The notes under the pieces are model-generated. The model did not search any database. It worked only from the letters and a program-made list of their open reading frames with translations, and had not been told where the DNA came from. A stretch of DNA of 64,000 bases, taken from the NCBI GenBank assembly GCA_016791045.1, contig JAEUNO010000031.1, positions 1 through 64,000 on the forward strand, read 5' to 3'. This DNA is from Methyloversatilis sp. (GTDB taxonomy: Bacteria; Pseudomonadota; Gammaproteobacteria; Burkholderiales; Rhodocyclaceae). Positions 1,564 through 23,061 of the stretch are shown in pieces; position 1 is the stretch's first letter, and each line of letters starts with the position of its first letter. Made by a program: the position numbers and the translations under genes.

Positions 1564-1590
1564 GTAACGGAGTTGCCGCTGCAAACTTTA
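1564..1590 (-). promoter_or_regulatory. Sigma-28 (FliA) promoter of flagellin
   Basis: Read on the minus strand, TAAAGTTT (1590-1583) is followed by 11 bases and TCCGTTAC (1571-1564). The FliA consensus is TAAAGTTT-N11-GCCGATAA, so the -35 is perfect and the -10 matches 5 of 8. The leader to the ATG at 1481 would be about 75-80 bases. Flagellin is the classical FliA target, which supports the call. Confidence 0.8.
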
Positions 1591-19822: not shown

Positions 19823-21205
19823 ATGCTTGATCGCATCGGCAAATACAGGGTTATCCGGGAAATCGGCAAGGGTGCGACCGCCACCGTATACCTATGCAAG
19901 GCTGATGACATCGAAGAGCTGGTCGCCGTGAAGCTGGTCGATTTCGGCGACAAGAACCGCGATCAGGGCAAATGGTCGCGCCGCATGCGCAAGCTGTTCC
20001 TGACCGAGGCGGCGATCGCCGCCAAGCTCAACCACCCGAACATCATCCGCATCTTCGACGCCCAGGTGGAAGAGGGGCGCGCCTATCTGGTGATGGAGTA
20101 CATCGAGGGCGAAGCACTCGATCACTACTGCGAATTCAACAAGATGCTGCCGCTGCCACGCGCCGTCAGCATCGTGTTCAAGTGCTGCATGGCGCTCGAC
20201 TACGCGTTCAAGCAGGGGGTCGTGCACCGCGACATCAAGCCGGCCAACATCCTGATCGGCGCCAATGACCTCGTGAAGGTGACGGATTTCGGACTGGCGC
20301 TGAATGTCGCGAAGGAAAACGACAAGGATTCGACCTTCATCATGGGCGTGGGCTCGCCGGCCTACATGAGCCCGGAGCAGGTGAAGGGCTATCCGCTGAA
20401 CCAGAAAACCGATCTGTATTCGCTCGGCGTGGTGCTGTTCCACCTGCTGACCGGCCGGCTGCCGTTCCGCGCCAAGCATCCCGCCCAGCTCATCTACAAG
20501 ATCATCAATGCCGATCCGCCGTCCGCATCGCAGCTGAATCCGGAAGTACCGGAAGGCATGGACCGGGTGATCCGCAAGGCGCTCGAGAAGGATCTGTATT
20601 CGCGCTACAAGAACGGTGCCGAGTTCGCGAAGGATCTGTCGTCGGTGCGCTTCAAGCTGCTCGACGACAGCTATGTGCCGCCGGATACCACCCGGTTCAC
20701 CATCCTGCGCAAGATGGCCTTCTTCACCGAATTCGACGATGTCGAGGTATGGGAGGTGCTGCGCTTCTCGGGCTGGCGCCAGTTTGCCGAGAATGCGGTG
20801 ATGATGCGTGAAGGCGATACGGACAACCGCTTCGGCCTCATCGTGTCGGGACAGGCCCAGGTCAGCGTCGGCGGTCGTCTGCTGGCCGAACTGGGTATCG
20901 GCGACGTGGTCGGCGAGATGGGCTACCTCGATCCCAAGCATGTCAGCCGGTCGGCCACGGTGATCGCCACCACCCAGATCACCTTCCTCGAAATCAACCC
21001 GTCCGCCCTGACGCTCGCGTCCGAAGAGTGTCTCGAACACTTCCGCGCCCAGCTGATCAGCACCATTGTGCAGCGTCTGGTGCGTGCCAACGCGGCGCTC
21101 GCCGCCCAGGGCGAGGAAGTCATGCTGCCGACCGAATCCGGTTTCTGCGTGGCAGGCGTCGGGCTCGATCTCGAACTGGCGCCCGATCCGCCGCTTCGTC
21201 GCTGA
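19823..21205 (+). CDS. Ser/Thr protein kinase fused to cyclic-nucleotide-binding domain
   Basis: 460 residues. The Hanks-type kinase (about 8-280) has all key residues: glycine loop GKGATATV (16-23), Lys37, HRD Asp137 (VVHRDIKPAN), DFG Asp155, and SPAYMSPEQ in place of APE. A cNMP-binding domain follows at about 298-425. Its phosphate cassette GEMGYLDPKHVSRSATV keeps the Glu (365) and Arg (376) that bind the cyclic nucleotide phosphate, so ligand binding is plausible. No membrane segment is seen. The order kinase then cNMP domain is the reverse of eukaryotic PKG. The substrate is unknown. It is divergent from grpE, and an AP2-domain gene follows 150 bases on. Confidence 0.92.
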   Translation: MLDRIGKYRVIREIGKGATATVYLCKADDIEELVAVKLVDFGDKNRDQGKWSRRMRKLFLTEAAIAAKLNHPNIIRIFDAQVEEGRAYLVMEYIEGEALDHYCEFNKMLPLPRAVSIVFKCCMALDYAFKQGVVHRDIKPANILIGANDLVKVTDFGLALNVAKENDKDSTFIMGVGSPAYMSPEQVKGYPLNQKTDLYSLGVVLFHLLTGRLPFRAKHPAQLIYKIINADPPSASQLNPEVPEGMDRVIRKALEKDLYSRYKNGAEFAKDLSSVRFKLLDDSYVPPDTTRFTILRKMAFFTEFDDVEVWEVLRFSGWRQFAENAVMMREGDTDNRFGLIVSGQAQVSVGGRLLAELGIGDVVGEMGYLDPKHVSRSATVIATTQITFLEINPSALTLASEECLEHFRAQLISTIVQRLVRANAALAAQGEEVMLPTESGFCVAGVGLDLELAPDPPLRR

Positions 21206-21279
21206 AAGATGCGCCTTCGAGGTCCGGAACGACTGCACATCCCGTCTGTTTCATCGTGAAACGCAGCCGCTCAGGCCGC

Positions 21280-21306
21280 TAAAGTTTCGATCCTGCAGGC
21301 CGAAAC
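21280..21306 (+). promoter_or_regulatory. Sigma-28 (FliA) promoter of the AP2-domain gene
   Basis: TAAAGTTT (21280-21287), 11 bases, GCCGAAAC (21299-21306). Against TAAAGTTT-N11-GCCGATAA the -35 is perfect and the -10 matches 6 of 8, better than the flagellin promoter in this window. Transcription would start near 21313. That leaves a leader of about 45 bases to the TTG at 21358 and makes the ATG at 21316 too close to use. An inverted repeat (AGTTTCG/CGAAACT) overlaps the motif. Confidence 0.7.
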
Positions 21307-21357
21307 TCTCCTCACATGCACCCGGCCAACCCGGTGCTGATCGGAAGGAGACCGACC

Positions 21358-21891
21358 TTGAGCCGCAATTCAGTTTATGGCATCAGCCGCGTGGATAACG
21401 AAGCCAGCCGGACGCACGGCTGGCTGGTGACTATCCAGCGACGCGGCGTGATACACCGCAAGCACTTCAGCGATGGCGTGTTTGGCGGCAAGCAGAAGGC
21501 GTTCACTGCCGCCAAGCAGTTCCGCGACGACATCATTGCGAAGTTTCCGCCGTTTTCGCTGCGCGAGTATTCGAGCATCGTCAAGAAGAACAACCGCTCC
21601 GGTGTTGTCGGGGTGTGCCGCTACTGTGCGTCGGAAACGCGCGACATGCCGGAAGAGAAACAGCGCTGGTTCTGGGTGGCGTCATGGCCACTGCCGTCGG
21701 GCCGGCGCAAGCGGGTGAAGTTCTCGGTCAACAAGTACGGCGAGGAAGGCGCGTTCAAGATGGCACTGAAGGCGCGCAAGGATGCGCTGAAGAAGCTCGA
21801 CGGCCAGTTCGATCCCGGTGCATCGCGCCGCGGTCGCCCGCGCCGTGCCAAGAACGACGAAACACCGGTGGCCGAAGCACGCGCTGCGTGA
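21358..21891 (+). CDS. Tandem AP2-domain DNA-binding protein
   Basis: 177 residues from a TTG start, which is preceded by GGAAGGAG at ideal spacing; the upstream ATG (21316) has no ribosome-binding site. Two AP2-like modules are seen. The first is at about 4-60 (YGISRV ... GWLVTIQRRG ... KHFSD ... AFTAAKQFRDDI). The second is at about 79-147 (SGVVGVCRY ... FWVASW ... KFSVNKYGEEGAFKMALKARK). A basic AT-hook-like segment, RRGRPRR (157-163), precedes an acidic tail. Bacterial AP2 domains are usually attached to homing or mobile endonucleases; here no nuclease domain is present. The expected role is DNA binding. The upstream FliA-type promoter suggests co-expression with flagella. No symbol is known to me. 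Confidence 0.82.
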   Translation: MSRNSVYGISRVDNEASRTHGWLVTIQRRGVIHRKHFSDGVFGGKQKAFTAAKQFRDDIIAKFPPFSLREYSSIVKKNNRSGVVGVCRYCASETRDMPEEKQRWFWVASWPLPSGRRKRVKFSVNKYGEEGAFKMALKARKDALKKLDGQFDPGASRRGRPRRAKNDETPVAEARAA

Positions 21892-21907
21892 CATCCGGTC
21901 AGGGCAT

Positions 21908-21937
21908 GAAAAAGGCGACCTCCGGGTCGCCTTTTTC
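21908..21937. terminator. Bidirectional terminator between AP2 gene and hemH
   Basis: GGCGACC pairs with GGTCGCC around a 4-base loop, with an A-run before and a T-run after. It serves the plus-strand AP2 gene and the minus-strand hemH gene. Confidence 0.9.
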
Positions 21938-21963
21938 TTGGTCGCGAGCCAGCCGTCGCGCCG

Positions 21964-23061
21964 CTATTTCGGCGCCCCGAAGGCCTTCGCACGTTCGGCC
22001 TGCAGCACCTGCTGATCGGCCACCGGGCTCGCCTCGTCCCACCAGTGACCCAGCTCGCGTCGAACGATGCGGCCCAGGGCGTCGATCCAGTCGGCGCGCT
22101 CGTTCAGGCAGGCGATGTACTGGAAGGTCTTGCCGCCCTTGCCGATGAAGGCGTCGCGGTTTTCCACCGCGATCTCCTCCAGCGTTTCCAGGCAGTCGGC
22201 GACGAAACCCGGGCAGATCACATCGACGCTCTGCAGGCCTTCCGCGGCGAGCTTCTCAAGCGTGGGCTGGGTGTAGGGTTCGAGCCAGCGTGCCTTGCCG
22301 AAGCGCGACTGGAAGGTGACCAGATACTGATCCTTCGCCAGACCGAGCGCCTCGGCCAGCAGGCGGCCTGTCTTGTGGCACTCGCAATGGTAGGGGTCGC
22401 CCTGTTCCAGATGGAAGTGCGGCACGCCGTGGAAGGACATGACCAGCTTGTCCGCGCGGCCATTCTTCGCCCAGTGTTCGCGCACGCTGGCCGCGAGCGC
22501 GCCTATGTAGCCGGTGTCTGCCGCGAAGGCACGCAGATAGCGCAGTTCCGGCAGGTTGCGCCAGCGCAGCAGGGTCTGCGCCAGTTCGTCGATCATCGAG
22601 CCGGTCGTGCTCGACGCCGCCTGCGGGTACATCGGCAGCATCAGGATGCGCGTGCAGCCGTCCATCTTCATCTGCTGCAGCATGTCGCCGATGGCCGGAC
22701 TGCCGTAGCGCATGGCAAATCGCACATCGATGTCGGGCTGACCTTCGGCAATCATCCAGCCGCGCAGCAGTTTGGCCTGGCGTTCGGTATGCACGCGCAG
22801 CGGCGACCCTTCATCGGTCCACACCGAGGCGTACTTTTCGGCGGACTGTTTCGGCCGCACGTTCAGGATGATGACGTTCAGGATGAACCACCACACGGCC
22901 TTCGGAATCTCGACCACGCGGTCGTCCGACAGGAACTGCTTGAGGTAGCGCCGCAGCGACGGGGCGTCCGGCTTGTCCGGTGTGCCGAGGTTCACCAGCA
23001 ATACGCCGGTGCGCGCGGGCTGGCCATGGGTGTAGGACGGTTCGGCGTTGAATCGTGACAT
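21964..23061 (-). CDS. hemH: Ferrochelatase
   Basis: Inserts Fe(II) into protoporphyrin IX, the last step of haem synthesis. 365 residues from MSRFNAEPSYTHG (ATG at 23061). The frame is open 36 codons further but reads as low-complexity shadow sequence. Family motifs: TGVLLVNLGTPD at the N-terminus, the catalytic His in SFHGVPHFH, and the catalytic Glu region CPGFVADCLETLEEI. It lies 58 bases after hrcA on the same strand and ends at a terminator. Confidence 0.96.
   Translation of the reverse strand: MSRFNAEPSYTHGQPARTGVLLVNLGTPDKPDAPSLRRYLKQFLSDDRVVEIPKAVWWFILNVIILNVRPKQSAEKYASVWTDEGSPLRVHTERQAKLLRGWMIAEGQPDIDVRFAMRYGSPAIGDMLQQMKMDGCTRILMLPMYPQAASSTTGSMIDELAQTLLRWRNLPELRYLRAFAADTGYIGALAASVREHWAKNGRADKLVMSFHGVPHFHLEQGDPYHCECHKTGRLLAEALGLAKDQYLVTFQSRFGKARWLEPYTQPTLEKLAAEGLQSVDVICPGFVADCLETLEEIAVENRDAFIGKGGKTFQYIACLNERADWIDALGRIVRRELGHWWDEASPVADQQVLQAERAKAFGAPK

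Follow-up and report, generated by a model that had tools for sequence, protein, structure and literature searches.

Within a 64,000-nucleotide stretch of a Methyloversatilis sp. genome (positions 1 to 64,000 of contig JAEUNO010000031.1, the whole of which is called the window below), we analysed a gene for a small basic protein with two AP2 modules, together with the promoter motif of flagellar type that precedes it. As judged from sequence and its conservation, the product is probably a DNA-binding regulator controlled by FliA, the flagellar sigma factor (sigma-28). The features concerned are listed here with their positions in the window; our handles for genomes (G) and loci (L) are given where they are needed to tell cases apart.

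21280..21287, + strand: -35 box TAAAGTTT of FliA (sigma-28) type, read from the sequence (1.78 bits per base over 32 non-redundant loci)
21288..21298, + strand: 11-base spacer CGATCCTGCAG, unconserved across the family (0.17 bits per base)
21299..21306, + strand: -10 box GCCGAAAC (1.62 bits per base), which in Escherichia coli tsr is GCCGAAAA
21313, + strand: predicted transcript start, placed from the position of the -10 box
21343..21350, + strand: Shine-Dalgarno sequence GGAAGGAG, read from the sequence and the same in 12 of the 13 Methyloversatilis genomes
21358..21891, + strand: tandem AP2 gene, 177 amino acids, TTG start, stop included, with an orthologue in each of the 13 Methyloversatilis genomes
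21382..21543, + strand: AP2 module 1 (residues 9-62), three strands followed by a helix (AlphaFold2 model; Foldseek)
21613..21798, + strand: AP2 module 2, residues 86-147, with the invariant C87-x2-C90 (Pfam, residues 120-155 of the ATG form; AlphaFold2 model)
1564..1590, - strand: flagellin promoter with the same -35 box, the comparison site (motif scan, 3 mismatches)
19823..21205, + strand: serine/threonine kinase gene with a cyclic-nucleotide domain (Pfam), the upstream neighbour here and the usual one in relatives
21909..21936, + strand: terminator-like inverted repeat AAAAAGGCGACC-TCCG-GGTCGCCTTTTT, plain on reading the sequence (a consensus scanner gave no terminator)

The motif on the forward strand, TAAAGTTT-CGATCCTGCAG-GCCGAAAC (21280-21306), agrees at 14 of 16 positions with the FliA consensus TAAAGTTT-N11-GCCGATAA, which was used for scoring. 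A preliminary description of this DNA had given that position and score, and had noted that the -35 box is identical to that of the flagellin promoter at 1564-1590; both statements are borne out, as is its layout of a predicted start 45 bases before the TTG codon (21313 to 21358) with the Shine-Dalgarno sequence between them. The TTG start is kept in all 13 Methyloversatilis genomes, and an in-frame ATG at 21316 was rejected, being kept in 2 of the 13 and lying 3 bases from the predicted transcript start. A consensus scan of positions 21150-22000 returned no sigma-70-type promoter, and no Rfam family was found in 21000-22100. Leader hairpins (from the -10 box to the Shine-Dalgarno sequence) look strong in Methyloversatilis and Zoogloea and not elsewhere, and a hairpin was rejected as a family feature (mean z of 0.12 over 69 folded leaders).

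The assignment to FliA is carried by conservation, because a motif by itself proves nothing: in E. coli, 30 of 52 FliA sites are intragenic and most of these have no detected transcript (PMC4183435). The preliminary description had said that loss of the motif in close relatives that retain the gene would refute a flagellar role; the motif is in fact kept. Both gene and motif are present in 13 of 13 Methyloversatilis genomes, where the motif has 13 or 14 of 16 matches, an 11-base spacer and a position 77-79 bases upstream. In a survey of 150 genomes of the family, 40 match the AP2 protein, and 34 of these hold what we count as orthologues (at least 66% identity; the other six, at 32-42%, were left out); a site of at least 12 matches lies near the gene in 28 of the 34. 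An order-wide sample of 399 genomes contained 10 that match the protein, the only close relatives being the source genome (G000) and G061, both of the family Rhodocyclaceae. Among 75 named loci, a set that overlaps the family genomes and includes near relatives, 71 score at least 12 and 69 are counted as carrying the motif, at 64-128 bases before the gene, the distance being taken to where the matched stretch of protein begins; L075 and L076, with a site at about -286, were not counted, and L090, L119, L126 and L138 score just 8-10. The spacer is 11 bases long in 67 of the 69 and 12 bases long in two. As controls for these loci, 75 reverse complements scored 11 of 16 at most, and a score of at least 12 was seen in 4 of 1500 shuffles. 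Methyloversatilis universalis and Zoogloea ramigera, both of them culturable, are among the named hosts.

The conservation is confined to the two boxes. Once similar upstream regions had been removed, leaving 32 of 67 aligned loci, the -35 and -10 boxes held 1.78 and 1.62 bits per base, and the spacer, upstream and downstream bases 0.17, 0.15 and 0.28; the spacer has mostly diverged among the motif-bearing loci. In the gene tree, for which the bootstrap is not settled and the root is for drawing only, motif-bearing loci lie to either side of the longest inner branch, and the six rows without a motif at the usual place require three changes (two to three in bootstraps). Directly after the -10 box, eight loci (L019, L020 and L022-L027, not L021) share ATCGCCGCC, which is also found in named Uliginosibacterium and Niveibacterium loci and resembles the plant GCC box; it could be a target of the AP2 protein or simply reflect shared ancestry.

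The same pattern precedes flagellar and chemotaxis genes. A scan of the window at up to three mismatches gave two sites, the AP2 promoter (two mismatches) and the flagellin promoter (three), against a mean of 0.03 sites in shuffled windows, none of 100 shuffles reaching two. Over the whole genome the same tolerance gave 16 matches versus 11 for a reversed-pattern control; because this loose scan is mostly noise, stricter patterns were used. The strict form, TNAAGTTT-N12-CCGWWA, has six matches in the source genome (control 0) and 16 over three Methyloversatilis genomes (control 0). The six precede flagellin, motA, methyl-accepting chemotaxis protein (MCP), photoactive yellow protein (PYP)-like, fimV-like and AP2 genes, the flagellin and the PYP-like protein being identified by eye; FliA itself is above the cut-off in this genome, where the flagellin, motA and MCP genes carry the motif. 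Thirteen further genomes of the family contain 48 strict matches versus 1 in the control, and loci were recovered for 30 of them: 14 precede flagellin, MotA, FlgM, FlhD or MCP genes (7 by Pfam, 7 by eye), 7 stand before other signalling genes (Pfam) and 9 before something else or nothing clear. Flagellin loci were also fetched from the same genomes (30, with the start located in 29), and their upstream regions, scanned without a shuffle control, hold a site of at least 12 matches in 18 of 29 and of at least 11 in 22 of 29, with the same -35 box and NCCG(T/A)(T/A)A. A site of this form is FliA-dependent in E. coli, where tsr has TAAAGTTT-N11-GCCGAAAA and deletion of fliA lowers its value from 630 to 9 (PMC4183435). 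The placement of the AP2 gene in the late flagellar regulon, proposed in the preliminary description, is thus supported by motif conservation and by the recurrence of the pattern at flagellar and chemotaxis genes.

Some of the other genes behind such motifs deserve mention in their own right. A fimV-like gene with TAAAGTTT-N11-GCCGAAA(G/A) occurs in all 13 Methyloversatilis genomes (in G000 at C19:2594-2620; L043, L065, L213), its identity resting on FimV_N in the single copy scanned; control of this polar landmark protein by FliA would tie the building of the pole to flagellar completion. The PYP-like protein, of 130 amino acids, lies behind TCAAGTTT-N11-GCCGATAC (G000 C2:300665-300691; L042, L210) and is also present in G004; Pfam at 1e-4 was empty for it, and the likeness was seen by eye. 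In two genomes of the family, flhD genes (L235, and L239 by eye) are preceded by FliA-type motifs at a distance of some 220-240 bases, through which FliA might feed back on the master regulator.

The AP2 protein has 177 residues, a mass of 20 kDa, an isoelectric point of 10.6 and a charge of +21. Its two modules, likewise anticipated from the sequence, were recovered by Pfam and in an AlphaFold2 model. Pfam AP2 (PF00847) scores 38.6 bits over two stretches against a cut-off of 33.3 when the 191-residue ATG form is tested; in a six-frame scan, the single best AP2 stretch reaches 27.8 bits, under that cut-off. The model (mean predicted local distance difference test score 77.7, predicted template modelling score 0.54) shows a strand-strand-strand-helix unit twice, and the cysteines C87 and C90 do not vary among 31 sequences. 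At the top of the Foldseek matches stand mitoribosomal chains of Toxoplasma and the SIP2 tandem of Plasmodium falciparum in its DNA-bound form, with both modules aligned; the root-mean-square deviation is above 10 Å for the whole chain and 1.8 Å over 58 columns for one module alone, the high whole-chain value probably arising from a different placement of the modelled modules. No sequence relative was found in the PDB at an E value of 1. No nuclease domain was detected in Pfam, NCBIfam or PHROGs, nor any HNH match at an E value of 1, and a phage origin was rejected (best PHROGs E value 0.19; no relative among viral contigs). Plant ERF chains are absent from the Foldseek matches listed, which excludes nothing. 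Identity to the window protein is 96.8% within the genus and 78.5% outside it, compared with 95.7/84.0% for DnaK, 94.6/69.8% for HrcA, 82.0/65.3% for GrpE and 82.7/55.5% for RecN across the 49 loci with the full set of eight genes (9 from the genus and 40 from outside it). These loci were found by AP2 similarity, which favours AP2 somewhat; the AP2 protein is conserved nearly as well as DnaK.

Since a FliA-like switch stays with the gene across many relatives, we infer FliA dependence in the cell, and it is suggested that finishing a flagellum switches on a DNA-binding factor. RNA polymerase with FliA would transcribe the gene from TAAAGTTT-N11-GCCGAAAC after completion of the hook-basal body, transcription beginning when FlgM no longer holds FliA; hook completion with release of FliA from FlgM is an established checkpoint. 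The tandem protein would then bind DNA, most likely reading a two-part site with its two modules, and would tune other genes in motile cells. We consider it highly probable that FliA transcribes the gene in most of these species, and there is a good likelihood that DNA is the ligand of the protein. DNA binding and a regulatory effect are what we infer from the predicted fold, and the combined proposal, a class-3 flagellar gene by its promoter whose product is a DNA-binding tuner of other genes, is the account we favour, with distinctly less assurance than its promoter half. A wider version is speculative: across the Rhodocyclales, flagellum completion may activate a dedicated chromosome-binding AP2 factor whose fold is otherwise familiar from transcription factors of plants and apicomplexans. 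The factor would be an old and strongly selected output of the FlgM-FliA switch, resetting genes that lie beyond the flagellar clusters, and would use GCCGAAA to act at its own promoter and that of fimV as well.

The gene usually sits in the order dnaK, grpE, kinase, AP2, hemH, hrcA, nadK, recN, which is complete in 49 of 75 loci, some of the incomplete ones being cut by contig ends. Seven loci have none of the seven usual neighbours near the AP2 gene, and the motif is kept in all seven. In the Desulfobacillus clade, the AP2 gene very likely needs its own promoter, because a thioredoxin gene, divergent from AP2, separates it from the kinase gene. Just behind trxC in the Desulfobacillus-Sulfuritalea clade there is a second FliA-type motif, directed away from AP2 (L129, L131, L132, L134-L137, L255 and L256; L133 with a 12-base spacer). 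It faces a gene for a 346-residue protein, without a Pfam family at 1e-4, in some genomes (G083, G021, L132); because that gene is absent in others, a small RNA is possible there. The window also has a palindrome, GTTTCATCGTGAAAC (21249-21263), after the kinase gene and ahead of the promoter; the close relatives L003 and L006 keep it, and it is absent from L010, L012 and L013. The flagellin gene (1-1481) is about 20 kb from the AP2 gene (21358-21891), and the same holds in G004 and G006; in G012 and G021 the distance is about 32 kb and 26 kb, respectively, and the two genes are far apart in G083 and G131.

Two alternatives accept transcription by FliA and differ over what the protein does. The better of them, though improbable, is that in motile cells it binds RNA, or has ribosomes or transcripts as its target, and does not regulate through DNA; the fold matches that rank best over the two modules are AP2-like chains from the mitochondrial ribosome of Toxoplasma, and the protein is very basic and carries the invariant C-x2-C. 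Slightly less probable still is that it packs the DNA of motile cells as an abundant nucleoid protein of weak specificity. A 20-kDa protein with a charge of +21 and high conservation would suit that role, as would the AT-hook-like RGRP tail of the window protein; however, the RGRP core is absent from translated orthologues outside the genus and altered in the genus member L008.

Other observations weigh against the proposal of a FliA-controlled regulator at the level of the promoter. Flagellin is present in 33 of the 34 genomes that hold the AP2 gene, and this co-occurrence was rejected as proof and gives weak support because fliA is common, being above the cut-off in 133 of the 150 genomes of the family. 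The sole flagella-less holder found, G130, has no fliA above the cut-off, no flagellin and no FlhA, yet keeps TAAAGTTT-N11-GCCGACAA. Its flagella may have been lost recently, and a simple relic is only a partly convincing account, as the second motif behind trxC persists there though the 346-residue gene is gone; that this motif also persists without the gene in L129, L131, L134, L135 and L136 weakens the relic explanation. Conversely, G039, G052, G061 and G066 have fliA, flagellin and FlhA but no motif, and G035 and G095 show at best a decayed trace of it at the usual place. In G095, fliA is not above the cut-off, which may be an assembly gap because flagellin and FlhA are present and the assembly is in 1240 contigs. 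Seven of the 29 flagellin upstream regions lack a site above 10, some being clipped by a contig end, and the flagellated genome G066 has no strict-pattern match at all. Finally, the -10 box is more fixed at AP2 loci than at flagellins: its first base is G in 69 of 69 AP2 loci versus 7 of 22 flagellins, and its fifth is A in 67 of 69 versus 6 of 22, many of the rows being near relatives. This tightness need not come from FliA alone, and the box may have another reader besides FliA.

The last point, together with the motif in G130 and the GCCGAAA form at the fimV-like gene of all 13 genus genomes, is what can be said for boxes that are not mainly a FliA promoter and instead serve another sigma factor or, in part, as an AP2 operator (GCCGAAA) for autoregulation. 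We regard this as unlikely: flagellar genes of these genomes have the same -35 box and spacing, GCCGAAA is also used by an MCP gene (L230) and an HDOD gene (L253) of relatives, and E. coli tsr, which depends on FliA, has the same form. Least of all do we credit a chance match without function, with the AP2 gene read through from the kinase gene: the E. coli counts cited above do show that FliA matches are not always active, but here the boxes and not the spacer are conserved across the family, and the intervening thioredoxin gene makes read-through unlikely in the Desulfobacillus clade.

A FliA-controlled DNA-binding regulator would be of interest on two counts. The late flagellar regulon is commonly seen as ending in structural, motor and sensing proteins; if many genera kept a DNA-binding protein under the flagellar switch, the signal that a flagellum is complete would reach the chromosome as a whole. 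We know of no physiological role for a bacterial AP2 protein outside mobile elements, and none surfaced among the titles and starts of abstracts listed by the literature searches, so this would be the first known to us; the same listings show no paper that joins a FliA promoter to an AP2 gene, or 'AP2 domain' to 'FliA'.

Among known systems, the closest on the promoter side are the FliA class-3 promoters of E. coli tsr and tar, which have boxes of the same kind and the same spacer length, tsr also sharing GCCGAAAA. Known class-3 products, in contrast, are filament, motor, chemotaxis and cyclic di-GMP proteins; to our knowledge, none of the E. coli genes named alongside tsr in the same table passage encodes an AP2 protein. 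On the protein side, the SIP2 tandem of P. falciparum (6sy0, ApiAP2) likewise has two consecutive AP2 modules (Foldseek E value 5e-4, model residues 7-149), but it is a eukaryotic factor with 13-17% identity and differently placed modules (root-mean-square deviation over 12 Å). The usual bacterial context of AP2 is the AP2-HNH homing endonucleases of phages, which share an AP2 module with the present protein; its fold matches include viral proteins, some of which bear the name of homing endonucleases. Unlike these enzymes, it has no nuclease domain, no relative on a viral contig and mostly one chromosomal place. It belongs to the same Pfam family (PF00847) as the plant AP2/ERF transcription factors, and differs from these in being bacterial, in carrying two modules within 177 residues and in having a FliA-type promoter. 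FliA promoters and AP2 domains are each familiar; what is new, as far as the literature listings show, is that the two are combined in a bacterial gene that is old and strongly conserved.
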